Positions 2,408 through 47,748 of a stretch of 64,000 nt of DNA are shown one piece after another (positions within the stretch are counted from its first letter, which is position 1; the number at the start of each line of letters is the position of its first letter). The translations under genes were made by a program, and so were the position numbers. Source of the DNA: Hexactinellida sp. DTS-2022 (taxonomy: Eukaryota; Porifera; Hexactinellida). The stretch covers positions 13,754,501-13,818,500 of the forward strand of contig JAPNXP010000001.1 in the NCBI GenBank assembly GCA_028753945.1, given 5' to 3'. The notes below the pieces were generated by a model, which saw only the letters and a program-made list of their open reading frames with translations, searched no databases and was not told the origin of the DNA.

Positions 2408-3643
2408 TTAGAAAAATTGAAGAGGATAGTTAGGATTATAAGACGCGACACAAATGGTTCCTAATTTGGAGATACAAACTCCATAGGGCTCGATAAACTC
2501 CCCTAAGGCATTTCCTTTCCTTCCCAAGGTGAGAATATGCTGTCCAGATTCCGTATACACCTTGATGGCATTATTCCCCCTGTCGCTAATGATGATATTA
2601 CCAGCTGAGTCCAAACAGAAGAAGTAAGGGCTAGCGACCAAACTGTCCTCTGTCCCTATAGAGACACAGGAACTGAGGGGGTGTCCTTCTCGAGAGAAGA
2701 AATGGACACATTTGGGACTCATGTCTAGCACCACGATTCGATCAGCTGACAGCTTAACGTCTCTGGGGCGATACAAATGTCCTATTCCGATGCAGGACTT
2801 GAATTTAAGGAGTTTCGAGTATACGCACACTCTGTGGTTGTAGTAATCTGCAACTAACACATCTCCGTTAGTGTCGATACAGAGTCCTTCGGGATAGCTA
2901 AACTCTCCTTCCTTGTTTCCTTTAGTTCCAGTTCTGTTGATGAGTTTGTGATCTTTCTTTCGGAACTGTAACAATGCATGGTGCCATGTGTCGGTTACGA
3001 ATATGGACTCTTTGTTAACAGATATTCCCCATGGATCCCCTAGCTTATCATTCCTGAATTGTGCCACAAACTCTCCCTTTAACGACACTATTTGCACACG
3101 TTCGTTCCAATAATCTGCTATGTACATTAGCTCAGTGGATTCATCGAATGCTATTCCTGCGGCTTCCAACTCATTAGCACCTGCACCAAACTTCCCAGCT
3201 GTTAATACAGGTTCTCGCTTGAGAGAATAGTCCGGTATCTCACACGGGACTATCTCTCCTAGCTCGGATATCAGCTGTCGGATTGTGTCCGTATTTTGAC
3301 ACCTGAAGACGGGACATAGGAATGTGGCAGATGGTCCCAGTTTCTTAATGCCCTGTTGGTAGAATTGTTTGGCCTGTTCATGGAACTCTAGGTTTGGGTT
3401 AACCTTTATGCTCATTTCCATCATTTGTTGCTGTACCCTTTCGAGTTCTTCTATGGCAGCGATACGAGTGGCCTCTTTGTTCCTGTGGTCCTCTCGCAGC
3501 TCACGGACCCTCTGGAGGAGAGCGTCCCTCCTCGCGATCAGCTGATCGATTAGGGGATCGAATGTTTGGAGGATGATAGTGGCGACATTGTCGAATTGTG
3601 CCATTTTATCAAAAGTTACATTTGTAGGCATATTAGTGGCCAT
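2408..3643 (-). CDS. Coiled-coil NHL beta-propeller protein, copy 1
   Basis: Single-exon, 411 residues. Residues ~34-80 are a charged, heptad-like coiled coil. Residues 105-135 hold conserved cysteines (FLCP, RC, VPC). Residues ~150-411 form six NHL blades with repeated P-x-G-(I/L/V) and D-x-x-N-x-R-V signatures. This is the C-terminal half of a TRIM-NHL or RNF-NHL protein without RING or B-box, so no ubiquitin-ligase activity can be assumed. NHL propellers bind RNA or protein on one face. No signal peptide or membrane segment is seen, so it is probably cytosolic. The start follows AAA and has A at -3 and G at +4. Variable face sites (160/162; 178-179; 202-203-205; 219-220; 249-250-252; 267-268-270; 289-291-292; 308; 329; 338-340; 355-357; 387) read E,A; Y,W; G,D,W; T,W; S,Y,E; Y,Y,H; H,Y,R; M; I; S,P,Y; R,G,N; Y. 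It ends QFF where sister copies end QCF. Confidence 0.85.
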   Translation of the reverse strand: MATNMPTNVTFDKMAQFDNVATIILQTFDPLIDQLIARRDALLQRVRELREDHRNKEATRIAAIEELERVQQQMMEMSIKVNPNLEFHEQAKQFYQQGIKKLGPSATFLCPVFRCQNTDTIRQLISELGEIVPCEIPDYSLKREPVLTAGKFGAGANELEAAGIAFDESTELMYIADYWNERVQIVSLKGEFVAQFRNDKLGDPWGISVNKESIFVTDTWHHALLQFRKKDHKLINRTGTKGNKEGEFSYPEGLCIDTNGDVLVADYYNHRVCVYSKLLKFKSCIGIGHLYRPRDVKLSADRIVVLDMSPKCVHFFSREGHPLSSCVSIGTEDSLVASPYFFCLDSAGNIIISDRGNNAIKVYTESGQHILTLGRKGNALGEFIEPYGVCISKLGTICVASYNPNYPLQFF

Positions 3644-4020
3644 TTTAGTTTTTGTTGCGAATTGAGTTTATTCAAATAATATAATTAATCTATTACAGAT
3701 CTATCTTATACTTGTGTAACTTGAGAATACCAAAGTACGTCAATGGTTGCTATGGTAATTATTGGAAAGGAGGGAATTTTTTTGGATTATTGTGTCTACT
3801 GTGACTCAATTAACCAATAAAATTCCCTAACTTTCCCGTAACCATAACATAGCCAAACCATAGTTCGAATAATATTATTATTATACGCGCCGAAATATTT
3901 GGCGCCTAAATTTATTCATTTATATAAGTTAGTTTAGTAGTTTCTAATCTTTCCCCGCCTAAACACAATTAGATCCAAATTATGGCGCCTAAATCTACTA
4001 TTCAATTGGTTTGTTCGGAT
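3644..4020 (-). promoter_or_regulatory. Conserved 5' flank of NHL copy 1
   Basis: Same architecture as the flank detailed at 15,280-15,660: CRE-like TACGTCA at 3736-3742, X-box-like GTTGCTATGGTAAT at 3746-3759, CCAAT boxes around a central TGAGTCA (reverse strand), then GGCGCC motifs near 3900 and 3985. The proximal CCAAT arm has decayed here (ATTTTTTTGG instead of ATTTTATTGG). Confidence 0.5.
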
Positions 4021-4136
4021 TTTGTTTTAAACTGACGGGAATAGAAACAGCATTTATATTTGTGATACAAAATAATCCCTATTGTATAAATAGGTAATCT
4101 GTATGCTGATCACGAATTTCTTATTTATAATAAGAA

Positions 4137-4290
4137 TACTAGTATCCCTTTGGTCTTGGTCGTTTTGCGCCTGATTTACATGGTATTGCTTCCTTAAATA
4201 CCTTGCCCTAAAATTCTGGATTTGTATTACAAATGTGGGAACAATTGTTCCCTGTCAATTTATCCTTTTGCAGTGTATTTATTTTCTATG
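4137..4290 (-). repeat. Fragment of the element family found upstream of NHL copies
   Basis: Contains a decayed hairpin-end motif (CTTTGGTCTTGGTCG) followed by sequence shared with 14,040-14,180, 25,535-25,680, the reverse of 45,960-46,100, and 52,370-52,500. It marks the outer edge of the duplicated unit carrying the NHL gene. Confidence 0.5.
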
Positions 4291-4370
4291 CAATATATTT
4301 AAAACACATCAGACATTCTTATATAATAAATAATATTTGTAATTATTCTTGTTTTTATATACATCTATAA

Positions 4371-4743
4371 CAGGGGTGCTCAACATACGGCCCGCGTAAA
4401 AATTTAATCCGGCCCGTCCATACTTGCACTAACTTTTGCACTCTGTAATATAGACTATTTCTTCATATTCCTAAACCACAATTCAATTACTTTCATACTG
4501 AGTGTCAAATATCAATTGATTTGACATATCGAGGATTCTTGTTGATTTTGAATACCAAACAGGTGCATGTGATAATAAACCTTAGCTCATGATTTAGATG
4601 TGTTTCTTAACCTTTTCTGTTCAATTTCCGCTTGGATATTATACCCCAATCTATCTGTCCCTTTATGAATTAGCCTATATGGCCCAGCTAAATATTTGAG
4701 GAACCCAATGTGGCCCGAAATTAAATCGAGGTGTGCACCCCTG
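4371..4743. mobile_element. hAT-like MITE, CAGGGGTGCTCAAC ends
   Basis: Ends CAGGGGTGCTCAAC / GTGTGCACCCCTG are flanked by a perfect 8-bp duplication ATCTATAA (4363-4370 and 4744-4751). GGCCCG motifs occur just inside both ends. 373 bp, no coding capacity. Confidence 0.9.
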
Positions 4744-4915
4744 ATCTATAATGTTCGTTTTGTATGTGTATGTTTGTGTGTCTTGTACTTTCCATCTGTG
4801 AACGCTTTGAGTCCTTTGTGTGAAGCGTACTAAATGCTGCTGTATTATTAAGATTATTATTTTTGTCACAAAGAAGAATCCTATGTTAATTCGGCCTTCT
4901 CCCGAGTCTCTAGCT

Positions 4916-5444
4916 CAGTGGTTTTCAACCTTTTTTGTATTACGGAACCCCTAAATTGTTTGTGGCAGCACGCCGAACCCTACACTTCTAATTCCTCTAC
5001 GAATATATTCATAACAAATTTAATTACATTTATTTATTAACTACATAGTACCAGGCTTTCATCCAGACTAAATTTCGCGCGCGCCTAGATATAGTTTGAG
5101 ATCGCTCACACGCGCCTAAGTTAATCATTTTGTATTAAGTCTATGGGAGCATCTCTCGATTTTCGCGCGCCTAGAAATTTTTTCATCCAAATTTACGCGC
5201 CTACAGGCGCGTTGCATACGCCTGGATGAAACCCTGCATAGTACGTATTGTCAGGTACAATTTCAATGTGAGATCTGTGATTGTTTACTTTTGCATTTTT
5301 CTTTTATTCGTGGTCTGATAGTCAATAAGCTGCTAAAGATTGTATTTCCGATTGACTATTATGAGTCTCTGCTGTATTAACATCGATTTGCTAATAATCC
5401 CACGGAACCCTTGGGTTCCGCGGAACCCCGGTTGAAAACCACTG
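4916..5444. mobile_element. hAT-like element, CAGTGGTTTTCAACC ends
   Basis: Inverted ends CAGTGGTTTTCAACC / GGTTGAAAACCACTG sit in a perfect 8-bp duplication CTCTAGCT (4908-4915, 5445-5452). GGAACCCC motifs are mirrored inside the ends. It is interrupted by a second element at 5052-5236. Confidence 0.92.
5052..5236. mobile_element. Nested MITE, CAGGCTTTCATCC ends
   Basis: CAGGCTTTCATCC / GGATGAAACCCTG with a perfect 8-bp duplication CATAGTAC (5044-5051, 5237-5244), inserted in the 4916-5444 hAT element. The interior repeats GCGCGCCTAG and ACGCGCCTA on both strands. A second, diverged copy is at 53,350-53,515. Confidence 0.88.
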
Positions 5445-12331: not shown

Positions 12332-13546
12332 TTAGAAACATTGAAGAGGATAGTTAGGATTATAAGACGCGACACAAATGGTTCCTAATTTGGAGATACA
12401 AACTCCATTTGGCTCGATAAACTCCCCTAAGGCATTTCCTTCCCTTCCCAAGGTGAGAATATGCTGTCCCGATTCAGTATACACCTTGATGGCATTATTC
12501 CCCCTGTCGCTAATGATGATATTACCAGCTGAGTCCAAACAGAAGAAGTAAGGGTAAGCGACCAAACTGTCCTCTGTCCCTCTAGAGACACAGGAACTGA
12601 GGGGGTGTCCTTCTCGAGAGAAGAAATGGACACATTTGGGACTGTGGTCTAGCACTACGATTCGATCAGCTGACAGCTTAACGTCTCTTGGTTCACACAG
12701 CTGTCCTATTCCGATGCAGGATTTGAATTTGAGGAGTTTCGAGTTTACGCACACTCTGTGGTTGTTGTGATCTGCAACTAACACATCTCCGTTAGTGTCG
12801 ATACAGAGTCCTTCGGGATAGCTAAACTCTCCTTCCTTGTTGCCTCTTGTTCCAGTTCTGTTGATGAGTTTGGAATCTTTCTTTCGGAACTGTAACAATG
12901 CATGGTGCCATGTGTCGGTTACGAATATGGACTCTTTATTAACAGCTATTCCATGTGGCAACCTGAGCTTATCATTCTTGAATTGTGCCACAAACTCTCC
13001 CTTTAACGACACTATTTGCACACGACTGTTCCAATAATCTGCTACGTACATTAGCTCAGTGGATTCATCGAATGCTATTCCTCTGGCATAGAACTCATTA
13101 GCACCTGCACCAAACTTCCCAGCTGTTAATACCGGTTCTCGCTTGAGAGAATAGTCCGGTATCTCACACGGGACTATCTCTCCTAGCTCGGATATCAGCT
13201 GTCGGATTTTGTCCGTATTTTGACACCTTAAGACGGGACATAGGAATGTGGCAGATGGTCCCAGTTTCTTTTTGGCCTGTTCATGGAACTCTAGGTTTGG
13301 GTTAACCTTTATGCTCATTTCCATCATTTGTTGCTGTACCCTTTCCAGTTCTTCTATGGCAGCGATACGAGTGGCCTCTTTGTTCCTGTGGTCCTCTCGC
13401 AGCTCACGGACCCTCTGGAGGAGAGCGTCCCTCCTCGCGATCAGCTGATCGATTAGGGGATCGAATGTTTGGTGGATAATAGTGGTGACATTGTCGAAAT
13501 GTGCCATTTTATCGAAAGTTACATTTGTAGGCATATTAGTGGCCAT
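12332..13546 (-). CDS. Coiled-coil NHL beta-propeller protein, copy 2 (404 aa)
   Basis: Intact single-exon family member, seven residues short. An in-frame 21-bp deletion removes QAYQQGI after residue 92, at the C-terminal end of the coiled coil, leaving the NHL domain whole. In full-length numbering the variable face sites read Y,R; Y,W; R,L,H; T,W; S,Y,E; H,N,H; Q,C,E; H; R; Y,P,Y; R,G,N; N. R-L-H at 202-205 matches only copy 10, while R-G-N at 355-357 matches copies 1 and 6, a mosaic suggesting gene conversion. The 3' flank (ATTAAA-type poly(A) signal region, then the hairpin-element junction near 12,215) is the same as in copies 3, 9 and 10. Confidence 0.85.
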   Translation of the reverse strand: MATNMPTNVTFDKMAHFDNVTTIIHQTFDPLIDQLIARRDALLQRVRELREDHRNKEATRIAAIEELERVQQQMMEMSIKVNPNLEFHEQAKKKLGPSATFLCPVLRCQNTDKIRQLISELGEIVPCEIPDYSLKREPVLTAGKFGAGANEFYARGIAFDESTELMYVADYWNSRVQIVSLKGEFVAQFKNDKLRLPHGIAVNKESIFVTDTWHHALLQFRKKDSKLINRTGTRGNKEGEFSYPEGLCIDTNGDVLVADHNNHRVCVNSKLLKFKSCIGIGQLCEPRDVKLSADRIVVLDHSPKCVHFFSREGHPLSSCVSRGTEDSLVAYPYFFCLDSAGNIIISDRGNNAIKVYTESGQHILTLGREGNALGEFIEPNGVCISKLGTICVASYNPNYPLQCF

Positions 13547-13900
13547 TTTAGTTTCAGTACGAATTGAGTTTATTCAAATAATATAATTAATCTATTACAG
13601 ATCTATCTTATACTTGTGTAACCTGAGAATACCAAAGTACGTCAATGGTTGCTATGGTGATTACTGGAAAGAAAGGAATTTTATTGGATAATTGTGTCTA
13701 CTGTGACTCAATAAACCAATAAAATTCCCTAACTTTCCAGTAACCATAGCATAGCCAAACCATTGTTTGAATAATATTTGAATTCTAAGCGCCAAAATAG
13801 TTGGCGCCTGAATTTGTTCATTTATAAGTTAGTTTAATAGTTTCTAATCTTTCCCCGCCTAAACACAATAGATCCAAATTATGGCGCCTAAATCTACTAT
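13547..13900 (-). promoter_or_regulatory. Conserved 5' flank of NHL copy 2
   Basis: All parts described for 15,280-15,660 are intact on the minus strand: CRE-like and X-box pair, two inverted ATTTTATTGG/CCAATAAAAT arms, central TGAGTCA, second X-box half, and a GGCGCC/TTTTGGCGC pair near 13,800. Beyond 14,036 the hairpin-end motif GCCCTTCGGTCTCGGTCG appears. Confidence 0.5.
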
Positions 13901-15279: not shown

Positions 15280-15660
15280 AATAAATGCGGACAATAAACG
15301 AATTGAATAGTAGATGTAGGCGCCATAATTTGGATCTGATTGTCTTTAGGCGGGGAAAGATTAGAAACTATTAAACTAACTTATAAATGAATAATTCAGG
15401 CGCCAACTATTTTGGCGCGTATAATTCTAATATTATTCAAACAATGGTTTGGCTATGCTATGGTTACTGGAAAGTTAGGGAATTTTATTGGTTTATTGAG
15501 TCACAGTAGAAACAATTATCCAATAAAATTCCATTCTTTCCAGTAGTTACCATAGCAACCATTGACGTACTTTGGTATTCTCAGGTTACACAAGTATAAG
15601 ATAGATCTGTAATAGATTAATTATATTATTTGAATAAACTCAATTCGTACTGAAACTAAA
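15280..15660 (+). promoter_or_regulatory. Palindromic promoter-like flank of NHL copy 3 (type description)
   Basis: Reading toward the gene: GGCGCC at 15,319; GGCGCC and an E2F-like TTTTGGCGCG at 15,399-15,419; then an imperfect palindrome of ~40-bp arms. The left arm runs from GGCTATGCTATGGTTACTGG to AATTTTATTGG (~15,450-15,491). The right arm runs from CCAATAAAATTCC to CCATAGCAACC (15,520-15,560). The loop carries TGAGTCA, an AP-1 consensus. Each arm has a CCAAT box (15,487-15,491 inverted; 15,520-15,524) and an X-box-like site (right: GTTACCATAGCAAC, 15,546-15,559). A CRE-like TGACGTAC (15,563-15,570) follows, then a TATA-like TTATATTATTTG before the ATG. Motifs are read by eye; function is inferred from retention in most copies. 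Confidence 0.55.
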
Positions 15661-16896
15661 ATGGCCACTAATATGCCTACAAATGTAACTTTTGATAAAA
15701 TGGCACATTTCGACAATGTCGCCACTATCATCCACCAAACATTCGATCCCCTAATCGATCAGCTGATCGCGAGGAGGGACGCTCTCCTCCAGAGGATCCG
15801 TGAGCTGCGAGAGGACCACATGAACAAAGAGGCCACTCGTTTCGCTGCCATAGAAGAACTGGAAAGGGTACAACAACAAATGATGGAAATGAGCATAAAG
15901 GTAAACCCAAACCTAGAGTTCCATGAACAGGCCAAACAAGCCTACCAACAGGGCATTAAGGAACTGGGACCATCTGCTACATTCCTATGTCCCGTCTTAA
16001 GGTGTCAAAATACGGACACAATCCGACAGCTGATATCTGAGCTAGGAGAGATAGTCCCGTGTGAGATACCGGACTATTCTCTCAAGCGAGAACCGGTATT
16101 AACAGCTGGGAAGTTTGATGCAGGTGCTAATGAGTTGAATGCCAGAGGAATAGCATTCGATGAATCCACTGATCTAATGTACATAGCAGATTATGGGAAC
16201 AGTCGTGTGCAAATAGTGACATTAAAGGGAGAGTTAGTTGCAAAATTAAGGAATGATAAGCTCATGTGGCCATGTGGAATAGCTGTTGACAAAGAGTCCA
16301 TATTCGTAACCGACATATTGCACCATGCATTGTTAAAGTTCCGAAAGAAAGATCACAAACTCAACTACAGAACTGGAAATTTAGGCTGCAAGGAAGGAAA
16401 GTTTAGCTATCCAAATGGACTCTGTATCGACACTAACGGAGATGTGTTAGTTGCAGATACCTACAACAACAGAGTGTGCGTACACTCGAAACTCCTCAAA
16501 TTCAAGTCCTGCATCGGAATAGGACAGCTGAATCACCCCAGAGACGTTAAGCTGTCAGCTGATCGAATCGTGGTGCTAGACATGAGTCCCAAATGTGTCC
16601 ATTTCTTCTCTCGAGAAGGACACCCCCTCAGTTCCTGTGTCTCTAGAGGGACAGAGGACAGTTTGGTCGCTAACCCTACTTTCTTCTGTTTGGACTCAGC
16701 TGGCAATATTATCATTAGCGACTATGGGAGTAATGCCATCAAGGTGTATACGGAATCTGGACAGCATATTCTCACCTTGGGAAGGAAAGGAAATGCCTTA
16801 GGGGAGTTTATCGAGCCCTTTGGAGTTTGTATCTCCAAATTAGGAACCATTTGTGTCATGTCTTATAATGCTAATTATCCTCTTCAATGTTTTTAG
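15661..16896 (+). CDS. Coiled-coil NHL beta-propeller protein, copy 3
   Basis: Intact 411-residue single-exon copy and the only intact plus-strand one. Besides the face sites it has the most scaffold changes of the family (for example I46, M54, F61, E101, K195, K226, N235-Y236, K247), so it is a diverged lineage or under relaxed constraint. Face sites: N,R; Y,G; M,W,C; I,L; S,Y,N; T,Y,N; Q,N,H; M; R; N,P,T; Y,G,S; F. Q-N-H at 289-292 is shared with copy 5. The stop is followed by a T/A-rich 3' flank with ATTAAA, and the 5' end of a hairpin element begins about 110 bp downstream, followed by the old NHL remnant at 17,663. Confidence 0.85.
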   Translation: MATNMPTNVTFDKMAHFDNVATIIHQTFDPLIDQLIARRDALLQRIRELREDHMNKEATRFAAIEELERVQQQMMEMSIKVNPNLEFHEQAKQAYQQGIKELGPSATFLCPVLRCQNTDTIRQLISELGEIVPCEIPDYSLKREPVLTAGKFDAGANELNARGIAFDESTDLMYIADYGNSRVQIVTLKGELVAKLRNDKLMWPCGIAVDKESIFVTDILHHALLKFRKKDHKLNYRTGNLGCKEGKFSYPNGLCIDTNGDVLVADTYNNRVCVHSKLLKFKSCIGIGQLNHPRDVKLSADRIVVLDMSPKCVHFFSREGHPLSSCVSRGTEDSLVANPTFFCLDSAGNIIISDYGSNAIKVYTESGQHILTLGRKGNALGEFIEPFGVCISKLGTICVMSYNANYPLQCF

Positions 16897-17655: not shown

Positions 17656-17662
17656 AATATTT

Positions 17663-18353
17663 TCAGAGACAGGAGACTATCTCAACGAATTCGGACAACA
17701 CCTGAAATGGCCATGGGGCATATTAATCCTCAGGATAGCATTTATGTCACGGACTTAAACCAAGATGCTATCTTCCTATTCAAACTTCCAGATCTCAGAA
17801 TGGTAAAGCGAGTAGGGAAGAAAGGATCTGGAAAAGAACAGTTCAATTATCCGAGACAACTCGCCATCTCTCCCAATCAACGCCTCTACGTGCCAGACAC
17901 AAACAACAACAGAATCCAAATCCTGTCTACAGATCTAGCTTTCAAAGGCTCGCTACGACAATGACAGAACCTGTTGATGTTAAATTCACAAAAAATGAAA
18001 TGTTTGTGTTAAGCCGTGAAGACAATCCCTATATGCACGTGTTTACACTATCAGGAGAGAAGTCCCGCTCCCTAATTACCTATGGTAATGTAATTCCCGG
18101 AGGAGGTATGGGAACGCAAGTTTCAGGAGCAAGGTTCTTCTGTTTAGACGGACGCAATAATATTGTTATCAGCGACTACTATGCTCACGTTATAAATGTA
18201 TTCTCTCCAGCAGGAGACCTCCTACACACGGTAGGGCAGATAGGACATCAAGCTGGAATGTTTTTCTTCCCTCATGGCATTGGTATCCTCAACAACACTA
18301 AATTAGTTTGTGTGTCTCAAAATAGTTCACATGCATTGCAAATATTTTCATAA
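17663..18353 (+). pseudogene. 5'-truncated, frameshifted older NHL-repeat gene
   Basis: About 230 codons of NHL blades that share the motifs but not the sequence of the nine young copies (YVTDLNQDAIFLF, YVPDTNNNRIQIL, VISDYYAHVINVF). There is no coiled coil. The reading frame shifts at about 17,961, where the first frame ends at CAATGA and the second continues from the overlapping ATG (MTEPVDVKF). The two halves join naturally as adjacent blades, so one small indel explains the break. The apparent upstream start near 17,587 lies in a MITE and is not real. A split gene with an unseen upstream exon is possible, but the frameshift and adjoining element favour a relic. Confidence 0.7.
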
Positions 18354-19351: not shown

Positions 19352-20587
19352 TTAGAAACATTGAAGAGGATAATTAGGATTACTAGAGACGACACAAATG
19401 GTTCCTAATTTGGAGATACAAACTCCTCGGGGCTCAATAAACTCCCCTAAGGCATTTCCTTTCCTTCCCAAGGTGTGAATATGCTGTCCCGATTCCGTAT
19501 ACACCTTGATGGCATTACTCCCACAGTCGCTAATGATGATATTGCCAGCTGAGTCCAAACAGAAGAAGAAAGGGTTAGCGACCAAACTGTCCTCTGTCCC
19601 TCTAGAGACACAGGAACTGAGGGGGTGTCCTTCTCGAGAGAAGAAATGGACACATTTGGGACTCATGTCTAGCACCACGATTCGATCAGCTGACAGCTTA
19701 ACTTCTCTAGGGTGATTCAGTTGTCCTATTCCGATGCAGGACTTGAATTTGAGGAGTTTCGAGTATACGCACACTCTGTTGTTGTAGCAATCTGCAACTA
19801 ACACATCTCCGTTAGTGTCGATACAGAGTCCATAGGGATAGTAAAACTCTCCTTCCTTGTTGCCTCCAGTTCCAGTTCTGTTGATGAGTTTGGAATCTTT
19901 CTTTCGGAACTGTAACAATGCATGATGCCCTGCGTCGGTTACGAATATGGACTCTTTATTAACAGCTATTCCATGTGGCCACTCCAGCTTATCATTACCG
20001 AATTGTGCCACAAACTCTCCCTTTAACGACACTATTTGCACACGACTGTTCCCAATATCTGCTACGTACATTCGTTCAGTGGATTCATCTAATGCTATTC
20101 CTGCGGCTTTCAACTCATTAGCACCTGCACCTAACTTCCCAGCTGTTAATACCGGTTCTCGCTTGAGAGAATAGTCCGGTATCTCACACGGGACTATCTC
20201 TCCTAGCTCGGATATTAGCTGTCGGATTGTGTCCGTATTTTGACACCTGAAGACGGGACATAGGAATGTGGCAGATGGTCCCAGTTTCTTAAAGCCCTGT
20301 TGGTAGGCTTGTATGGCCTGTTCATGGAACTCTAGGTTTGGGTTTACCTTTATGCTCATTTCCATCATTTGTTGCTGTACCCTTTCGAGTTCTTCTATGG
20401 CAGCGATACGAGTGGCCTCTTTGTTCCTGTGGTCCTCTCGCAGCTCACGGAACCTCTGGAGGAGAGCGTCCCTCCTCGCGATCAGCTGATCGATTAGGGG
20501 ATCGAATGTTTGGTGGATGATAGTGGCGACATTGTCGAATTGTTCCATTTTATCAAAAGTTACATTTGTAGGCATATTAGTGGCCAT
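19352..20587 (-). CDS. Coiled-coil NHL beta-propeller protein, copy 5
   Basis: Intact 411-residue single-exon copy. Private scaffold changes include E15 (MEQFDN), F46, I93, L166 and R173. Face sites: K,A; I,G; E,W,H; A,G; Y,Y,Y; C,Y,N; Q,N,H; M; R; N,P,F; C,G,S; R. Acidic E202 and small A219-G220 make its predicted face chemically unlike neighbouring copies. Position 371 is H in HIHTLG against L elsewhere. Confidence 0.85.
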   Translation of the reverse strand: MATNMPTNVTFDKMEQFDNVATIIHQTFDPLIDQLIARRDALLQRFRELREDHRNKEATRIAAIEELERVQQQMMEMSIKVNPNLEFHEQAIQAYQQGFKKLGPSATFLCPVFRCQNTDTIRQLISELGEIVPCEIPDYSLKREPVLTAGKLGAGANELKAAGIALDESTERMYVADIGNSRVQIVSLKGEFVAQFGNDKLEWPHGIAVNKESIFVTDAGHHALLQFRKKDSKLINRTGTGGNKEGEFYYPYGLCIDTNGDVLVADCYNNRVCVYSKLLKFKSCIGIGQLNHPREVKLSADRIVVLDMSPKCVHFFSREGHPLSSCVSRGTEDSLVANPFFFCLDSAGNIIISDCGSNAIKVYTESGQHIHTLGRKGNALGEFIEPRGVCISKLGTICVVSSNPNYPLQCF

Positions 20588-23941: not shown

Positions 23942-25177
23942 TTAGAAACATTGAAGAGGATAGTTAGGATTATAAGACGCGACACAAATGGTTCCTAATT
24001 TGGAGATACAAACTCCATAGGGCTCGATAAACTCCCCTAAGGCATTTCCTTCCCTTCCCAAGGTGAGAATATGCTGTCCAGATTCAGTATACACCTTGAT
24101 GGCATTATTCCCCCTGTCGCTAATGATGATATTACCAGCTGAGTCCAAACAGAAGAAAGTAGGGTTAGCGACCAAACTGTCCTCTGTCCCTCTAGAGACA
24201 CAGGAACTGAGGGGGTGTCCTTCTCGAGAGAAGAAATGGACACATTTGGGACTCATGTCTAGCACCACGATTCGATCAGCTGACAGCTTAACGTCTCTGG
24301 GGCGATACAAATGTCCTATTCCGATGCAGGACTTGAATTTAAGGAGTTTCGAGTATACGCACACTCTGTGGTTGTTGTGATCTGCAACTAACACATCTCC
24401 GTTAGTGTCGATACAGAGTCCTTCGGGCCAGTAAAACTCTCCTTCCTTGTTGCCTTTAGTTCCATTTCTGTTGATTAGTTTGTGATCTTTCTTTCGAAAC
24501 TGTAACAATGCATGGTGCCATGTGTCGGTTACGAATATGGACTCTTTGTTAGCAGCTATTCCCCATGGACACTTGAGCTTATCATTCCTGAATTGTGCCA
24601 CAAACTCTCCCTTTAATGACACTATTTGCACACGACTGTTCCCATAATCTGCTATGTACATTAGCTCAGTGGATTCATCGAATGCTATTCCTGCGGCTTC
24701 CAACTCATTAGCACCTGCACCTAACTTCCCAGCTGTTAATACCGGTTCTCGCTTGAGAGAATAGTCCGGTATCTCACACGGGACTATCTCTCCTAGCTCG
24801 GATATCAGCTGTCGGATTGTGTCCATGTTTTGACACCTTAAGACGGGACATAGGAATGTGGCAGATGGTCCCAGTTTCTTAATGCCCTGTTGGTAGGCTT
24901 GTTTGGCTTGTTCATGGAACTCTAGGTTTGGGTTAACCTTTATGCTCATTTCCATCATTTGTTGCTGTACCCTTTCGAGTTCTTCTATGGCAGCGATACG
25001 AGTGGCCTCTTTGTTCCTGTGGTCCTCTCGCAGCTCACGGACCCTCTGGAGGAGAGCGTCCCTCCTCGCGATCAGCTGATCGATTAGGGGATCGAATGTT
25101 TGGTGGATAATAGTGGTGACATTGTCGAAATGTGCCTTTTTATCGAAAGTTACATTTGTAGGCATATTAGTGGCCAT
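23942..25177 (-). CDS. Coiled-coil NHL beta-propeller protein, copy 6
   Basis: Intact 411-residue copy. Face sites: E,A; Y,G; K,C,W; T,W; Y,W,E; H,N,H; H,Y,R; M; R; N,P,T; R,G,N; Y. H-Y-R at 289-292 and E160/A162 match copy 1 while the 202-205 set does not, again a mosaic. K14 replaces methionine (FDKKAHF), and N237 replaces the threonine of RTGT. The initiator context has lost one A relative to its sisters (GGCCATTTAG in place of GGCCATTTTAG on the plus strand), which should not affect the start. Confidence 0.85.
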   Translation of the reverse strand: MATNMPTNVTFDKKAHFDNVTTIIHQTFDPLIDQLIARRDALLQRVRELREDHRNKEATRIAAIEELERVQQQMMEMSIKVNPNLEFHEQAKQAYQQGIKKLGPSATFLCPVLRCQNMDTIRQLISELGEIVPCEIPDYSLKREPVLTAGKLGAGANELEAAGIAFDESTELMYIADYGNSRVQIVSLKGEFVAQFRNDKLKCPWGIAANKESIFVTDTWHHALLQFRKKDHKLINRNGTKGNKEGEFYWPEGLCIDTNGDVLVADHNNHRVCVYSKLLKFKSCIGIGHLYRPRDVKLSADRIVVLDMSPKCVHFFSREGHPLSSCVSRGTEDSLVANPTFFCLDSAGNIIISDRGNNAIKVYTESGQHILTLGREGNALGEFIEPYGVCISKLGTICVASYNPNYPLQCF

Positions 25178-25440
25178 TTAGTTTGTTACGAATTGAGTTT
25201 ATTCAAATAATATAATTAATCTATTACAGATCTATCTTATACTTGTGTAACCAGAGAATACCAAAGTACGTCAATGGTTGCTATGGTGATTATTGGAAAG
25301 AAGGGAATTTTATTGGATAATTGTGTCTACTGTGACTCAATAAACTAATAAAACTCCCTAACTTTCTAGTAACCATAGTCAGTCAGATCCTAAATCTACT
25401 ATTCAATTATTGTTCGGATTTTGTTTTAAAGTGACAGGGG
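25178..25440 (-). promoter_or_regulatory. Truncated 5' flank of NHL copy 6
   Basis: Keeps the CRE-like, X-box, AP-1 and first CCAAT elements. The second CCAAT is mutated (AACTAATAAAACTCCC), and the GGCGCC part is deleted between AACCATAG and CAGATCC. Confidence 0.45.
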
Positions 25441-28786: not shown

Positions 28787-30022
28787 TTAGAAACATTGAA
28801 GAGGATAGTTAGGATTATAAGACGCGACACAAATGGTTCCTAATTTGGAGATACAAACTCCATTTGGCTCGATAAACTCCCCTAAGGCATTTCCTTCCCT
28901 TCCCAAGGTGAGAATATGCTGTCCAGATTCAGTATACACCTTGATGGCATTACTCCCCCTGTCGCTAATGATGATATTGCCAGCTGAGTCCAAACATAAG
29001 AAAGTACTGTTAGCGACCAAACTGTCCTCTGTCCCTCTAGAGACACAGGAACTGAGGGGGTGTCCTTCTCGAGAGAAGAATTGGACACATTTGGGACTCC
29101 AGTCTAGCACCACGATTCGATCAGCTGACAGCTTAACGTCTCTTGGTTCATTCAGTTGTCCTATTCCGATGCAGGATTTGAATTTGAGGAGTTTCGAGTA
29201 TACGCACACTCTGTGGTTGTAGTGATCTGCAACTAACACATCTCCGTTAGTGTCGATACAGAGTCCATAGGGCCAGTTAAACTCTCCTTCCTTGTTGCCT
29301 CCAGTTCCAGTTCTGTTGATGAGTTTGCAATCTTTCTTTCTGAACTGTAACAATGCATGGTGCCTTGTGTCGGTTACGAATATGGACTCTTTGTTAACAG
29401 CTATTCCATGTGGCCACTTGAGCTTATCATTACCGAATTGTGCCACAAACTCTCCCTTTAATGACACTATTTGCACACGACTGTTCCAATAATCTGCTAT
29501 GTACATTAGCTCAGTGGATTCATCGAATGCTATTCCTTTGGCTCTCAACTCATTAGCACCTGCACCTAACTTCCCAGCTGTTAATACCGGTTCTCGCTTG
29601 AGAGAATAGTCCGGTATCTCACACGGGACTATCTCTCCTAGCTCGGATATCAGCTGTCGGATTGTGTCCATGTTTTGACACCTGAAGACGGGACATAGGA
29701 ATGTGGCAGATGGTACCAGTTTCTCAATGCCCTGTTGGTAGGCTTGTTTGGCCTGTTCATGGAACTCTAGGTTTGGGTTTACCTTTATGCTCATTTCCAT
29801 CATTTGTTGCTGTACCTTTTCCAGTTCTTCTATGGCAGCGATACGAGTGGCCTCTTTGTTCCTGTGGTCCTCTCGCAGCTCACGGACCCTCTGGAGGAGA
29901 GCGTCCCACCTCGCGATCAGCTGACCGATTAGGGGATCGAATGTTTGGTGGATGATAGTGGCGACATTGTCGAAATGTGCCATTTTATCAAAAGTTACAT
30001 TTGTAGGCATATTAGTGGCCAT
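28787..30022 (-). CDS. Coiled-coil NHL beta-propeller protein, copy 7
   Basis: Intact 411-residue copy. It shares G33 and W39 (PLIGQLIARW) with the distant, plus-strand copy 10 and no other, which points to sequence exchange across 17 kb. Face sites: R,K; Y,W; K,W,H; T,R; N,W,Y; H,Y,H; Q,N,E; W; R; N,S,T; R,G,S; N. Other private changes are V103 (LVPSAT) and Q314 (CVQFF). N-S-T with F341-L342 is common to copies 7, 8 and 9. Confidence 0.85.
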   Translation of the reverse strand: MATNMPTNVTFDKMAHFDNVATIIHQTFDPLIGQLIARWDALLQRVRELREDHRNKEATRIAAIEELEKVQQQMMEMSIKVNPNLEFHEQAKQAYQQGIEKLVPSATFLCPVFRCQNMDTIRQLISELGEIVPCEIPDYSLKREPVLTAGKLGAGANELRAKGIAFDESTELMYIADYWNSRVQIVSLKGEFVAQFGNDKLKWPHGIAVNKESIFVTDTRHHALLQFRKKDCKLINRTGTGGNKEGEFNWPYGLCIDTNGDVLVADHYNHRVCVYSKLLKFKSCIGIGQLNEPRDVKLSADRIVVLDWSPKCVQFFSREGHPLSSCVSRGTEDSLVANSTFLCLDSAGNIIISDRGSNAIKVYTESGQHILTLGREGNALGEFIEPNGVCISKLGTICVASYNPNYPLQCF

Positions 30023-31615: not shown

Positions 31616-32851
31616 TTAGAAACATTGAAGAGGATAATTAGCATTATAAGACACGACACAAATGGTTCCTAATTTGGAGATACAAACTCCTCGTGGCTCG
31701 ATGAACTCCCCTAAGGCATTTCCTTTCCTTCCCAAGGTGAGAATATGCTGTCCAGATTCAGTATACACTTTGATGGCATTACTCCCCCTGTCGCTAATGA
31801 TGATATTGCCAGCTGAGTCCAAACATAAGAAAGTACTGTTAGCGACCAAACTGTCCTCTGTCCCTGTAGAGACACAGGAACTGAGGGGGTGTCCTTCTCG
31901 AGAGAAGAAATGGACACATTTGGGACTCCTGTCTAGCACCACGATTCCATCAGCTGACAGCTTAACGTCTCTAGGGCGATACAACTGTCCTATTCCGATG
32001 CAGGACTTGAATTTGAGGAGTTTCGAGTATACGCACACTCTGTTGTTGTAGTGATCTGCAACTAACACATCTCCGTTAGTGTCGATACAGAGTCCTTCGG
32101 GCCAGTTAAACTCTCCTTCCTTGTTGCCTCCAGTTCCAGTTCTGTTGATGAGTTTGTGATCTTTCTTTCTGAACTGTAACAATGCATGGTGCGCTATGTC
32201 GGTTACGAATATGGACTCTTTGTTAATAGCTATTCCCCATGGCCACGTGAGCTTATCATTCCTGAATTGTGCAACAAACTCTCCCTTTAAAGACACTATT
32301 TGCACACGACTGTTCCCAATATCTGCTACGTACATTAGCTCAGTGGATTCATCGAATGCTATTCCTCTGGCAATCAACTCATTAGCACCTTCACCATACT
32401 TCCCAGCTGTTAATACCGGTTCTCGCTTGAGAGAATAATCCGGTATCTCACACGGGACTATCTCTCCTAGCTCGGATATCAGCTGTCGGATTGTGTCCGT
32501 ATTTTGACACCTTAAGACGGGACATAGGAATGTGGCAGATGGTCCCAGTTTCTCAATGCCCTGTTGGTAGGCTTGTGTGGCCTGTTCATGGAACTCTAGG
32601 TTTGGGTTAACCTTTATGCTCATTTCCATCATTTGTTGTTGTACCCTTTCGAGTTCTTCTATGGCAGCGATACGAGTGGCCTCTTTGTTCCTGTGGTCCT
32701 CTCGCAGCTCACGGACCCTCTGGAGGAGAGCGTCCCTCCTCGCGATCAGCTGATCGATTAGCGGATCGAATGTTTGGTGGATGATAGTGGCGACATTGTC
32801 GAAATGTGCCATTTTATCGAAAGTTACATTTGTAGGCATATTAGTGGCCAT
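31616..32851 (-). CDS. Coiled-coil NHL beta-propeller protein, copy 8
   Basis: Intact 411-residue copy. Face sites: I,R; I,G; T,W,W; I,A; N,W,E; H,Y,N; Q,Y,R; R; T; N,S,T; R,G,S; R. Y152 and E154 (GKYGEG) are private, as are T92 (QATQAY) and G302 (ADGIVV, others ADRIVV). Its 3' side lacks the hairpin-element junction seen at most copies, and a shorter A/T stretch leads to the CAGGGCCG MITE. The next upstream neighbour, copy 7, is under 2 kb away. Confidence 0.85.
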   Translation of the reverse strand: MATNMPTNVTFDKMAHFDNVATIIHQTFDPLIDQLIARRDALLQRVRELREDHRNKEATRIAAIEELERVQQQMMEMSIKVNPNLEFHEQATQAYQQGIEKLGPSATFLCPVLRCQNTDTIRQLISELGEIVPCEIPDYSLKREPVLTAGKYGEGANELIARGIAFDESTELMYVADIGNSRVQIVSLKGEFVAQFRNDKLTWPWGIAINKESIFVTDIAHHALLQFRKKDHKLINRTGTGGNKEGEFNWPEGLCIDTNGDVLVADHYNNRVCVYSKLLKFKSCIGIGQLYRPRDVKLSADGIVVLDRSPKCVHFFSREGHPLSSCVSTGTEDSLVANSTFLCLDSAGNIIISDRGSNAIKVYTESGQHILTLGRKGNALGEFIEPRGVCISKLGTICVVSYNANYPLQCF

Positions 32852-33180
32852 TTTAGTTTCTGTTATGAATTGAGTTTATTCAAATAATATAATTAATCTA
32901 ATACAAATCTATCTTATACTTGTGTAACCAGAGAAAACCAAATTACGTCAATGGTTGCTATGGTAATTATTGGAAAGAAGGGAATTTTATTGGATAATTG
33001 TGTCTACATGTGACTCAATTAACCAATAAAATTCCCTAACTTTCCAGTAACCATAGCATAGCCAAACCATTGTTTGAATAATATTAGAATTATACGCGCT
33101 AAAATAGTTGGCGCCTGAATTTGTTCATTTATAAGTTAGTTAGTAGTTTCTAATCTTCCCCGCCTAAACACAATCAGATC
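32852..33180 (-). promoter_or_regulatory. Conserved 5' flank of NHL copy 8
   Basis: Complete motif set, with slight damage to the CRE-like site (AATTACGTCAATGG retains ACGTCA). It is joined at CAATCAGATC to unrelated sequence from 33,181. Confidence 0.5.
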
Positions 33181-38350: not shown

Positions 38351-38354
38351 AATA

Positions 38355-42139: not shown

Positions 42140-42200
42140 CCAACCCCTGGTCCAAACCTCTGGTGGGGCACAAGGAGGGCACACTCAAATTCAGATGCTC

Positions 42201-42990: not shown

Positions 42991-43261
42991 GATGCTCGTT
43001 AGCGTGGTTATTGTTAATCTTAAATTTCCTTATTATTATAGTATTGTAAAGACTTGTTCAATTTGTTGTCTCCATTTTATAATTTGTTCTTGCATATTTA
43101 CATTTATAAATGCAAAATTTTATGAATTACTTTTAATAAAAACTTTCTTAACATCGTCCCATGATGTCTATTATCTACTATGATTAATACATTAAATCCT
43201 ACAAATTTAACAAAGAAGATACTTACTATTTAATTGATTATAGTTGTTTATTTTATAAATC

Positions 43262-43355
43262 AATCTATATTATTAAAACTTGATTGTTGTGTGTATGTTT
43301 GTGACACACACAAACTAACACAGACAAACACAAAACATTGTGCTTTTAATATAGA
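43262..43355. mobile_element. Two facing hairpin-element 5' ends beside NHL copy 9
   Basis: A plus-strand start (TATTATTAAAACTTGATTG, GTGTG) meets a minus-strand start (ACACAAACTAACACAGACAAA, TTGTGCTTTTAATATAGAG). Together they form an interrupted palindrome, as at 12,124-12,215. Confidence 0.6.
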
Positions 43356-43466
43356 GATTGATTACCAGGATAGCATTCTGTACAATAAAACAGTTTAATT
43401 TTCCTCTTATTCAGTTTACACCATTTTAATAATACCAATAAATAAACAAATAAATAAATATACAAA

Positions 43467-44702
43467 TTAGAAACATTGAAGAGGATAATTAGCATTATAA
43501 GACACGACACAAATGGTTCCTAATTTGGAGATACTAACTCCATAGGGCTCGCTAAACTCCCCTAAGGCATTTCCTTTCCTTCCCAAGGTGAGAATATACT
43601 GTCCCGATTCCGTATATACCTTGATGGCAATACTCGCATAGTCGCTAATGATGATATTGCCAGCTAAGTCCAAACATAAGAAAGTACTGTTAGCGACCAA
43701 ACTGTCCTCTGTCCCTCTAGAGACACAGGAACTGAGGGGGTGTCCTTCTCGAGAGAAGAAATGGACACATTTGGGACTCCCGTCTAGCACCACGATTCGA
43801 TCAGCTGACAGCTTAACGTCTCTTGGGTAATGCAGATGTCCTATTCCGATGCAGGACTTGAATTTTAGGAGTTTCGAGTATACGCACACTCTGTTGTTGC
43901 CGCTATCTGCAACTAACACATCTCCGTTAGTGTCGATACAGAGTCCACAGGGCCAGTTAAACTCTCCTTCCTTGTTGCCTCTAGTACCAGTTCTGTTGAT
44001 AAGTTTGTGATCTTTCTTTCGGAACTGTAACAATGCATGGTACCATCTGTCGGTTACGAATATGGACTCTTTGTTAACAGCTATTCCCCATGGACTTCCT
44101 AGCTTATCATTCCTGAATTGTGCCACAAACTCTCCCTTTAAAGACACTATTTGCATACGACTGTTCCCATAATCTGCTACGTACATTAGTTCAGTCGATT
44201 CATCGAATGCTATTCCTGCGGCTTTCAACTCATTAGCACCTGCACCTAACTTCCCAGCTGTTAATACCGGTTCTCGCTTGAGAGAATAGTCCGGTATCTC
44301 ACACGGGACTATCTCTCCTAGCTCGGATATCAGCTGTCGGATTGTGTCCGTATTTTGACACCTGAAGACGGGACATAGGAATGTGGCAGATGGTCCCAGT
44401 TTCTTAATGCCCTGTTTGTAGACTTGTTTGGCTTGTTCATGGTACTCTAGGTTTGGGTTAACCTTTATGCTCATTTCCATCATTTGTTGCTGTACCCTTT
44501 CCAGTTCTTCTATGGCAGCGATGCGAGTGGCCTCTTTGTTCCTGTGGTCCTCTCGCAGCTCACGGACCCTCTGGAGGAGAGCGTCCCTCCTCGCGATCAG
44601 CTGATCGATTAGGGAATCGAATGTTTGGTGGATGATAGTGGCAACATTGTCGAATTGTGCCATTTTATCAAAAGTTACATTTGTAGGCATATTAGTGGCC
44701 AT
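43467..44702 (-). CDS. Coiled-coil NHL beta-propeller protein, copy 9
   Basis: Intact 411-residue copy. Face sites: K,A; Y,G; G,S,W; R,W; N,W,C; S,G,N; H,H,Y; G; R; N,S,T; Y,A,S; Y. It has the most changes at otherwise fixed scaffold positions of blades 5-6: L346 for serine (DLAGN), I358 for asparagine (SIAIKV), Y369, S384 (FSEP) and S390 (GVSIS). These suggest relaxed constraint or an altered face. S30 replaces proline (TFDSLI). The downstream junction with the hairpin element is the standard one. Confidence 0.83.
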   Translation of the reverse strand: MATNMPTNVTFDKMAQFDNVATIIHQTFDSLIDQLIARRDALLQRVRELREDHRNKEATRIAAIEELERVQQQMMEMSIKVNPNLEYHEQAKQVYKQGIKKLGPSATFLCPVFRCQNTDTIRQLISELGEIVPCEIPDYSLKREPVLTAGKLGAGANELKAAGIAFDESTELMYVADYGNSRMQIVSLKGEFVAQFRNDKLGSPWGIAVNKESIFVTDRWYHALLQFRKKDHKLINRTGTRGNKEGEFNWPCGLCIDTNGDVLVADSGNNRVCVYSKLLKFKSCIGIGHLHYPRDVKLSADRIVVLDGSPKCVHFFSREGHPLSSCVSRGTEDSLVANSTFLCLDLAGNIIISDYASIAIKVYTESGQYILTLGRKGNALGEFSEPYGVSISKLGTICVVSYNANYPLQCF

Positions 44703-45050
44703 TTTAGTTTCTGTTGCTAGTTGAGTTTATTCAAATAATATAATTAATCTATTACAGATCTATCTTATACTTGTGTAACTTGAGAATACCAAAGTACGTC
44801 AATGGTTGCTATGGTAATTATTGGAAAGAAGATAATTTTATTGGATAATTGTGTCTACTGTGACTCAATAAACCAATAAAATCCCTAACTTTCCAGTAAC
44901 CATAGCATAGCCGAACCATTTTTTGAATAATATTAGAATTCTACGCGCCAAAATAGTTGGCGCCTGAATTTGTTCTTTGAAAGGATCGTTAATAGTTTCT
45001 AATCTTTCCCCGCCTAAACACAATCAGATCCAATTTATGGCGCCTTTTGT
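44703..45050 (-). promoter_or_regulatory. Conserved 5' flank of NHL copy 9
   Basis: Full motif set. The outer palindrome arm reads AGTAACCATAGCATAGCC and TTTTGGCGCG/GGCGCC lie at 44,943-44,962. It ends in TTTATGGCGCC, after which the sequence is unrelated to other copies. Confidence 0.5.
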
Positions 45051-46100
45051 TTAGCTTAGAGATATCGTAAATATAAATTCCCACTTAAACTAGCTGATTA
45101 TTAGTTAACTTGTGTATAATACACTTTGTAACTATTATTATACCATTGTAACATTATCAAAAACCTATTTCCAATGTATCTTGTCTCTAGAAATTGATTT
45201 AATGCTTAGTCATCCAAACGAACGAATATTCGAATATTCGTTCGTTTACAAAAAGGTTCGTTCCTTACATTTCGAATATTCGTTTCAGCCTACGTTAAAG
45301 GCACTATATTTTGCTCCAAAAATGCCTCCAAAAGAAAATGCTGTAGAATAACTGATTGAAATAACTGATTGGATGCATGAATATACTCTCGACCAATTAA
45401 ATTACAGCCTCTGTTAGGCATTCTATAATGCACACTTAACAATTCATAGAAAATCCTTTTATACTCGATAATCCATACTGGGACAACCCTCAAATTTCAC
45501 TGTTAAAAGTTGTTACCTTGGAAATGTGAATTATCTAAAATCGTGACTCTAGGTGCACATCTGTAATCCATGAGACATCTATCCTGAAATTTCAGTTCTT
45601 AGTTAATACAACTCTGTTCTTTGGAGAGGAATGGTTACGGATAAATAATATACCAAGGCAGTCATTTCAATACTAGGCACTATACTATAGTATAGTCGGC
45701 ACAGTAACAAGTTAAAACTATGGAAATGGTATAAAGGGATGTAAATATAAACTGAGCCCTAGTAGAGCTGATAAGTATCTTCAATATTAAATATGTAGAG
45801 CCATTATAATTGGAATTACAGTATACCGGTTAATTGAGACAAATGTCCAGGAGACCAATAATATCTGTATTCATCCATACCGGTATAGATAAAAAATTTG
45901 TTCTACTTTCAACTAATTTTGTTAAAAATATATCCCATAGATAATATATACAGTATATTTGCCGGCTAAAGGAGCATAAATTGAAGAGAAGAAATTTTCC
46001 CACATTTGTAATACAAACCGAGCGTTTTAGGGCAAAGTATTTAAGCGCAATACATTGTCAATCAGACGCAAAACGACCGAGACCGAAAGGCTTCATAAAT
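45051..46100. other. Intergenic repeats upstream of NHL copy 10
   Basis: A perfect 26-bp palindrome at 45,219-45,244 (CGAACGAATATTC and complement), a diverged hairpin-element piece at 45,355-45,520, and the shared upstream block in reverse (45,660-46,100) ending in the GACCGAGACCGAAAGGCTT hairpin-end motif. No gene. Confidence 0.55.
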
Positions 46101-46189
46101 ACGAAATTCGTGTTCAGCATACTTGTTTACCTATTTATACAATTGGTAAGTTATTTTATATCTCAAATATAAATGCTGTTTCTATTCCC

Positions 46190-46513
46190 CTGTCACTTTA
46201 ACAAAATCCGAACAATAAACGAATTGAATAGTAGATTTAGGCGCCATAATTTGGATCTGATTGTGTTTAGGCGGGGAAAGATTAGAAAATACTAAACTAA
46301 CTTATAAATGAATAAATTCAGGCGCCAACTATTTGGCGATTAGAATTCCAATATTATTCAAACAATGGTTTGGCTATGCTATGGTTACTGGAAAGTAATT
46401 ACCATAGCAACCATTGACGTACTTTGGTATTCTCAGGTTACACAAGTATAAGATAGATCTGTAATAGATTAATTATATTATTTCAATAAACTCAATTCTC
46501 AACTAAAACTAAA
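46190..46513 (+). promoter_or_regulatory. Damaged 5' flank of NHL copy 10
   Basis: GGCGCC motifs, both X-box-like arms and the CRE-like site remain. About 80 bp between the palindrome arms (both CCAAT boxes and the AP-1 loop) are gone: ACTGGAAAG joins straight to TAATTACCATAGC. Deletion of a palindrome centre is a common replication-slippage outcome. Confidence 0.55.
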
Positions 46514-47748
46514 ATGGCCACTAATATGCCTACAAATGTAACTTTCGATAAAATGGCACATTTCGACAATGTCGCCACTATCATCCACCAAACATTCGAT
46601 CCCCTAATCGGTCAGCTGATCGCGAGGTGGGACGCTCTCCTCCAGAGGGTCCGTGAGCTGCGAGAGGACCACAGGAACAAAGAGGCCACTCGCATCGCTG
46701 CCATAGAAGAACTCGAAAGGGTACAGCAACAAATGATGGAAATGAGCATAAAGGTTAACCCAAACCTAGAGTTCCATGAACAGGCCAAACAAGCCTACCA
46801 ACAGGGCATTAAGAAACTGGGACCATCTGCCACATTCCTATGTCCCATCTTAAGGTGTCAAAACAAGGACACAATCCGACAGCTGATATCCGAGCTAGGA
46901 GAGATAGTCCCGTGTGAGATACCGGACTATTCTCTCAAGCGAGAACCGGTTTTAAGAGCTGGGAAGTTAGGTGTAGGTGCTAATGAGTTGAAAGCCGCAG
47001 GAATTGCATTCGATGAATCCACTGAGCTAATATACGTTCAGATTATGAGAACAGTCGTGTGCAAATAGTCTCATTAAAGGGAGAGTTTGTGGCACAATTC
47101 AGGAATGATAAGCTCAGGTTGCCACATGGAATAGCTGTTAACAAAGAGTCCATATTCGTAGCCGACACATTGAACCATGCATTGTTACAGTTCAGAAAGA
47201 AAGATCACAAACTTATTAACAGAACTGGAACTGGAGGCAACAAGGAAGGAGAGTTTAAATGGCCCTATGGACTCTGTATCGACACTAACGGAGATGTGTT
47301 AGTTACAGATAGCGACAACAACAGAGTGTGCTTATACTCGAAACTCCTCAAATTCAAGTCCTGCATCGGAATAGGACAGCTGTATCACCCTAGTGACGTT
47401 AAGCTGTCAGCTGATCGAATCGTGGTGCTAGACTGGAGTCCCAAATGTGTCCATTTCTTCTCTCGAGAAGGACACCCCCTCAGTTCCTGTGTCTCTACAG
47501 GGACAGAGGACAGTTTGGTCGCTAACCCTACCTTCTTCTGTTTGGACTCAGCTGGCAATATCATCATTAGCGACTTTGATACTAATGCCATCAAGGTGTA
47601 TACGGAATCGGGACAGCATATTCTCACCTTGGGAAGGAAAGGAAATGCCTTAGGGGAGTTTATCGAGCCCTATGGAGTTTGTATCTCCAAATTAGGAACC
47701 ATTTGTGTCGTGTCTTATAATGCTAATTATCCTCTTCAATGTTTTTAG
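46514..47748 (+). pseudogene. Coiled-coil NHL gene copy 10, 1-bp frameshift
   Basis: The first frame runs 184 codons to 47,068. The family frame resumes at 47,059 (MQIVSLKGEF) and is open to the normal stop. Against sister copies, TACGTAGCAGATTATG has become TACGTTCAGATTATG near 47,037, a net 1-bp loss in blade 1, so the protein would lose five blades. The promoter centre is also deleted, so I call it a pseudogene; an assembly error is the alternative for the indel alone. Face sites that can be read: K,A; (lost); R,L,H; T,L; K,W,Y; S,D,N; Q,Y,H; W; T; N,P,T; F,D,T; Y. It shares G33/W39 with copy 7. Confidence 0.82.

Follow-up and report, generated by a model that had tools for sequence, protein, structure and literature searches.

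Hypervariable positions on the propeller face of a large NHL gene family: a candidate germline-encoded recognition repertoire

The closest described case of propeller proteins diversifying on a constant scaffold is that of the HNWD genes of Podospora anserina (het-d, het-e), the WD40 propellers of which act in non-self recognition. In the parts of the two reports that deal with the repeats, the positively selected codons come in pairs on either side of a conserved residue, one in the d-a loop (7 and 9, around 8) and one in the b-c turn (25 and 27, around 26), and exchange among paralogues homogenises the scaffold while reshuffling the variants (PubMed Central (PMC) entries PMC1805685 and PMC2873952). 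For NHL propellers, the portion of the zebrafish LIN41 report that describes the complex names 14 residues of the upper propeller surface as RNA contacts (Kumari et al. 2018, PMC5908797). The RING-B-box-coiled coil arrangement is the defining TRIM motif in the account of the expanded fish families drawn on here (PMC3137616), and a figure legend on Halichondria panicea receptors includes NHL among the domains (PMC8242945). Within the portions of the open-licence PMC papers searched, no description of hypervariable NHL families was found. The present analysis concerns such a family, several members of which lie in a stretch of 64,000 nucleotides (the window, positions 13754501-13818500 of contig C1 in a genome of 112.4 Mb and 18 contigs). 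The original prediction, made on this window, held that its NHL paralogues vary at matching sites of each blade and that no such system was known, a statement that needs qualifying because the HNWD propellers evolve likewise, as far as the sections of those reports show. We consider it probable that the family is a germline-encoded recognition repertoire, the propeller face of which has been diversified by gene conversion and diversifying selection.

Each gene consists of a single open reading frame (ORF) for a protein of approximately 410 amino acids, in which an N-terminal segment precedes a six-bladed NHL propeller. All seven proteins scanned against Pfam (two window copies and five relatives, from six groups) contain NHL repeats (PF01436; E = 2e-20 to 1e-30) and gave a six-bladed propeller match, and six P/D registers were recognised in the family. 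Numbered as in window copy 1 (table 1), the blade anchors are P at 161, 204, 251, 293, 339 and 386 (blade 1 has A) and D at 177, 218, 266, 307, 354 and 401 (blade 6 has S). Across subfamily A, which comprises 54 distinct intact copies 80-100% identical to copy 1, every blade is hypervariable at P-1 (2.5-3.3 bits of entropy) and at D+1 (2.1-2.8 bits), and P+1 is likewise hypervariable in all six (1.2-2.5 bits); P-2 and D+2 vary in some blades only, D+2 being fixed in blades 4 and 6. The variable places therefore correspond to the D-A loop (P-1, P+1 and sometimes P-2) and to the B-C turn (D+1 and sometimes D+2), with the intervening P, G and D residues of the x-P-x-G and D-x-x-N motifs nearly fixed. 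The sites are not scattered along the propeller: mean entropy at 24 register sites was 2.23 bits, and the best of 264 cyclic shifts of the pattern reached 1.31 bits (0/264 as good). The register was defined after looking at A, and subfamily B (16 intact copies recovered, 54-57% identical to copy 1) provides a repeat, with 1.81 bits at the register and 1.02 bits for the best shift.

That the copies vary at the same two places in every blade was confirmed out of sample in 46 intact close copies outside the window, where the originally listed sites (23 by count rather than the 24 stated) average 2.32 bits, compared with 0.40 bits elsewhere in the propeller and 0.28 bits over residues 1-146 (Mann-Whitney p=1.5e-14). 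The list was incomplete, having missed 160, 162, 385 and 402 in blades 1 and 6, 294, and also 241 and 329 outside the register, and one of its members, 289, turned out to be only mildly variable (0.94 bits). Residues 118, 232, 241, 329, 371 and others vary off the register; of these, 241 and 329 fall in the D-A connection, ten residues N-terminal to P. Five site lists, which are not interchangeable, are used throughout: the 23 original sites (entropy of the outside copies and Nei-Gojobori, NG86, estimates), 24 (cyclic-shift test), 25 (residue composition, mosaic filter and pair differences), the 30-site register (subfamily NG86, C2 codons, LIN41 mapping and residue-count test) and a 42-site set (clusters from other contigs and parsimony). 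No two of the eight intact window copies share a combination of residues, as had been claimed; genome-wide 53 of the 54 combinations are distinct, the sole shared one belonging to the window copy at 2408-3643 and to a copy approximately 75 kb away with 99.5% amino acid identity.

The same register recurs in further groups with the single-ORF layout that are 22-37% identical to A and B and among themselves. Three or more residues are found at 16/30 register sites and at 0/232 other propeller sites in the C2 group, at 14/27 and 11/228 in the C17 group, and at 19/30 and 31/235 in the Aux group. Proteins from other contigs group into six separate clusters, and in each of these between 14 and 21 of the 22 sites that vary most fall inside the 42-site set; these clusters were built from the best 120 of 454 homologues, and those of fewer than five members (16/190 proteins) were omitted. 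We infer that the contigs belong to other species because the closest protein among the matches listed is 83% identical and the query itself is absent.

The variable residues were mapped onto the fold by sequence alignment to the chain of the zebrafish LIN41-RNA complex. All 14 letters agreed, and all 14 contacts named in that part of the report fell at P-2, P-1, P+1, D+1 or D+2 (P=1.1e-15, the register being 30 of 277 residues). The variable face is thus, by homology, the known ligand face of NHL domains, and the proposal that the variable loops gather on one surface holds at that level. The closest solved structures by sequence are those of TRIM2/3/71, Thin and Brat. This proximity, and the coincidence of the variable register with RNA contacts, would be in keeping with a repertoire of nucleic-acid readers in which each propeller binds a different RNA element, for instance so as to repress transcripts of transposons or viruses, on the model of KRAB zinc fingers, which track transposons. 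TRIM71, Brat and Mei-P26 bind RNA elements, and the latter two show that NHL faces can switch RNA motif.

The composition of the 25 variable sites bears on this alternative in both directions. Relative to the scaffold, W is enriched 162-fold, Y 8-fold and R 2.6-fold, along with H and N, and K (0.56-fold), D, V and L are depleted. An enrichment in Arg would suit an RNA ligand, but the mean net charge of a copy across the 25 sites is only +1.8 (from -3 to +7), and Lys is underrepresented, unlike in LIN41, where 8 of the 14 contacts named in the portion used are Arg or Lys, so that we regard an RNA-reading repertoire as unlikely, albeit deserving of serious weight. A composition rich in W, Y, R, H and N is typically found in antibody paratopes and in the hot spots of protein interfaces.

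Selection was estimated with author-written NG86 and parsimony scripts, rather than with PAML or HyPhy. The expectation that the ratio of nonsynonymous to synonymous substitution rates (dN/dS) at the listed codons exceeds that of the scaffold was supported: it is 3.68 in the 46 outside copies and 3.19 in the eight window copies, against 0.40 and 0.49 for the remaining propeller codons and 0.47 and 0.39 for the N-terminal part. Over the 30-site register dN/dS is 2.83 in A, 3.50 in B, 2.07 in C17, 2.03 in C2 and 3.25 in Aux (L087 was dropped from Aux, and L088 is in no group); the intervals of the corresponding proportions (pN/pS) exclude 1 in A, B, C2 and Aux, and the rest of the propeller has a dN/dS below 1 in four of the five subfamilies. 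A parsimony count on the scaffold tree yielded 2.13 at the 42 sites versus 0.39 and 0.46. Synonymous divergence (dS) in the 46 outside copies is equal at the sites (0.18) and in the rest of the propeller (0.19), and it is not raised at the sites in B or C17. Copies with the same residue at a variable site mostly have the same codon (4.6% of pairs differ, compared with 11% near by). The hypervariable register residues are under positive selection. Relaxed constraint, mutational hot spots or an assembly artefact, for which only the high copy number speaks, is a hardly credible explanation with dN/dS well above 1, conserved flanking P, G and D residues, intact frames and the same register in subfamilies that are only 22-37% identical.

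With respect to the origin of the diversity, differences at the 25 sites in subfamily A rise with scaffold divergence, from 0 at 0.14% (one pair) to 7-11 at 1.9-2.6% (five pairs), a mean of 14 at 3-4%, 17 at 4-6% (minimum 3) and approximately 19 above 6%, and three near-identical C17 copies (1.0-1.7%) differ at 0-1 of 27 sites; copies are therefore not scrambled at once. Linkage disequilibrium (LD) across paralogues falls from r2 0.186 at 1-3 bp to 0.026 at 100-200 bp (0/300 permutations as low), and the decay holds for scaffold sites alone (p=0.007), for synonymous sites alone (nine sites, p=0.007) and among the 34 copies not in the main cluster (p=0.006), which are scattered over several contigs. 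Decay within approximately 100 bp indicates that short-tract gene conversion probably shuffles the sites. In the C2 group (L076-L082, contig C2, 5.43-5.68 Mb) the propeller scaffold has diverged by 1.3-2.4% and the N-terminal parts by 4.7-30.8%, and 9-19 of the 30 register codons differ, as multi-base replacements; when the multi-base codon states were paired, the four-gamete test failed for 10 of the 42 pairs. The C2 propeller is a cassette that has been strongly homogenised and whose register codons are diverse. Scaffold codons near the variable sites showed no rise in synonymous variation in A (p=0.73), B (p=0.17) or C2 (p=0.23).

Targeted mutagenesis, in the form of hypermutation or of a system like the diversity-generating retroelements, could instead write the variable codons. 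It would accommodate the variation of codon positions 1 and 2 with the third base often fixed, the C2 multi-base replacements in a little-diverged scaffold, and the higher synonymous divergence of register codons in C2, in Aux and among the window copies. However, recent duplicates are unchanged in both A and C17, differences in A then climb with scaffold divergence, dS is not raised in the outside A copies, B and C17, and the LD decay and four-gamete violations fit gene conversion. Adenine-directed change, which characterises the variable proteins of diversity-generating retroelements, was considered and rejected, since each of the four bases is seen at the first and second codon positions and states such as GAG, TCC and TTA misfit it. 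We hold targeted mutagenesis to be quite improbable: local hypermutation is unneeded for A, although it may have contributed in C2. The best explanation is short-tract gene conversion among paralogues combined with selection that keeps the register diverse.

A six-frame search of the genome gave 102 matches, spread over C1 and another twelve contigs. Intact full-length or near-full-length matches number at least 264 genome-wide by hand count (54 in A, 22 in B, 43 at 70% identity or more in the C17/C6 group, 21 at 55% or more in the C2 group, 59 at 62% or more in the Aux group and a further 65 at 33-41%). The total is a lower bound, only about 100 of the more than 1100 candidates having been scored per search. 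For the A and B sets, ATG-initiated open frames of 370-470 amino acids were kept from the fetched loci and those with stops or frameshifts dropped, which left 16 of 26 full-length B matches; the 388-residue copy L033, whose N-terminal segment is missing its first part, was retained. Another expansion was noted at C13:1250394-1291140, where SRCR exons are repeated six times at a spacing of approximately 7.66 kb, within a large genome-wide SRCR expansion (153 domain matches), which suggests that the genome is that of an animal, probably a sponge. A search for Wnt gave no match, but its controls gave none either, so that it does not bear on this point.

The window itself contains eight intact ORFs (404-411 amino acids) and one frameshifted copy (table 1). 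Nine copies had been announced; eight are intact at the places given, and the ninth, which is split, was excluded from every count.

Table 1. Copies of the family and associated features in the window (positions are those of the window).
Feature	Position	Strand	Remarks
Intact copy 1	2408..3643	(-)	411 aa; numbering reference; propeller = residues 147-411 = 2408-3205
Conserved ~170-bp 5' flank of copy 1, putative promoter/5' untranslated region	3644..3812	(-)	similar in 51/52 copies examined
Intact copy 2	12332..13546	(-)	404 aa; 7-aa deletion in N-terminal part
Intact copy 3	15661..16896	(+)	411 aa
Diverged NHL half-propeller reading frame, 3' of copy 3	17739..18353	(+)	~30-35% identical
Intact copy 4	19352..20587	(-)	411 aa
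Intact copy 5	23942..25177	(-)	411 aa
Intact copy 6	28787..30022	(-)	411 aa
Intact copy 7	31616..32851	(-)	411 aa
Intact copy 8	43467..44702	(-)	411 aa
Ninth copy	46514..47748	(+)	broken copy; frameshift near 47038

The strong conservation of the roughly 170 bp before the ATG extends to dispersed copies. It includes the motif CCATAGCAAC followed by CAT and TGACGTA, which we take to resemble an RFX half-site adjoining a cyclic AMP response element, and GCAACCATTGACGTA is present in the 5' flank of 43/52 copies. The downstream flank is partly common to 31/52 copies, often over approximately 60 bp. A retrogene or mobile-element origin was considered, as upstream similarity among many dispersed copies is limited to approximately 170 bp. 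No common terminal repeat was found among the four loci checked: in L017 and L026 the ORF is flanked by inverted arms that differ in sequence and distance, and L021 and L036 have none spanning the ORF. A sequence of approximately 120 bp recurs in inverted orientation in several 5' flanks (13645-13765, 15442-15557, 25274-25378, 32951-33072 and 44802-44920) and is perhaps a small mobile element or hairpin. Elsewhere in the window, an open frame at 54286-54990 (+) contains a Calx-beta domain (PF03160, E=1.2e-18), a domain found in sponge aggregation factors, and another at 61269-61802 (+) has a PAN-domain match that is weak and below the cut-off.

Returning to a germline-encoded recognition repertoire, a number of observations weigh against it. 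The lower bound of the register pN/pS in C17 is 0.98, and in Aux (four copies) the rest of the propeller has a dN/dS of 1.49, so that selection there is not confined to the register and this group is less clean; the C2 N-terminal parts are not near-identical (pN 0.21); and single-site tests are weak, with 17 sites at p<0.05 uncorrected, 12 of which are in the 42-site set. Synonymous rates are also uneven, with a dS in the eight window copies of 0.18 at the sites versus 0.08 in the rest of the propeller, a pS that is higher at the register in C2 (0.156 versus 0.028) and Aux (0.144 versus 0.063), and a synonymous rate on the tree that is slightly up at the sites (4.4 versus 3.5 per site), counts at multiply-hit codons being uncertain. 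It is consequently the excess of nonsynonymous change that supports selection, and the sites may to some extent also reflect older coalescence or a higher mutation rate. Whole-blade swapping found little favour, since only one pair passed a strict mosaic filter, and exchange tracts must therefore be short. Finally, RING finger and B-box domains gave no match in the two window copies (E<=1) or in the five relatives (E<=0.01), nor did WD40 repeats or a NACHT domain in the seven proteins; no other effector domain was seen in them, which leaves the output unexplained.

The reading that best accommodates these data would work as follows. The N-terminal segment has a hydrophobic periodicity of the amphipathic-helix type (p=0.011 at 3.6 residues, p=0.08 at 3.5); it looks helical, is likely oligomerising and may form a true coiled coil, and it would confer avidity or a link to an effector. 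The ligand-face loops of every blade are diversified under positive selection, and short tracts exchanged among paralogues would reshuffle the register sites. The resulting face would bind diverse and rapidly changing ligands, for which intracellular molecules of parasites or symbionts are the likeliest candidates. The repertoire is probably intracellular, and no signal peptide or membrane segment was seen in the protein sequences by eye (no predictor was run). The surface may recognise non-self, and the repertoire may be in use. In its boldest form, the proposal is that of an animal immune repertoire of several hundred intracellular NHL receptors, widespread in related species, with 25-30 face residues reassorted almost freely by genome-wide short-tract gene conversion, for which we would give slightly less than even chances. 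That such a repertoire is previously undescribed, and that it amounts to a germline counterpart of an antibody paratope library, with a propeller as its scaffold, is a tentative proposition that falls just short of an even bet. The family makes it testable how hundreds of paralogues can be diverse at approximately 25 sites when conversion makes the remainder uniform, and it would be a natural library of NHL binders.

Among known systems, the TRIM-NHL proteins (TRIM71/LIN41, Brat, TRIM2/3, Thin, Mei-P26) have in common with this family an N-terminal helical part, a six-bladed NHL propeller and the same face. The family has the NHL propeller of class VII TRIM proteins but falls outside that class for RING and B-box, undetected in the proteins scanned, and it comprises hundreds of paralogues. 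Furthermore, the contact residues are hypervariable here, whereas they are mostly identical among LIN41 proteins of different species in the comparison contained in the part of that report relied on (PMC5908797). The finTRIM, btr and trim35 genes of fish, as presented in the sections of the study that concern them, are likewise TRIM-type families that have expanded and in which a C-terminal recognition domain has diversified, but a B30.2 loop is under diversifying selection there and the NHL face here (PMC3137616).

The closest parallel is with the HNWD genes, within what the cited portions of those reports cover. In both cases the fold is a beta-propeller, and the same loops with the same flanking pattern are under positive selection, although the face is assigned by homology here; in both, members exchange sequence, as suggested here by the LD decay and the homogenised C2 propeller. 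There are also differences: WD40 repeats are combined with NACHT there, and NHL repeats come with no effector domain in the seven proteins scanned here; ten genes exchange repeat units within and between themselves there, compared with at least 264 single-ORF genes in an animal-like genome here. By analogy with the fungal het genes, whose allorecognition propellers are selected in the same loops, the repertoire might distinguish self from non-self rather than target parasites; the dispersal of the genes over hundreds of loci, as opposed to a few polymorphic ones, and the lack of secretion or membrane signals in the sequences as read by eye make this improbable. If, as we favour, the face of a germline-encoded recognition repertoire binds foreign ligands, the family would be a large innate recognition system, probably of an early-branching animal, built on a scaffold unknown for such use. 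The NHL repertoire would then appear, by analogy, convergent with the fungal HNWD receptors, a striking convergence on the same two propeller loops.

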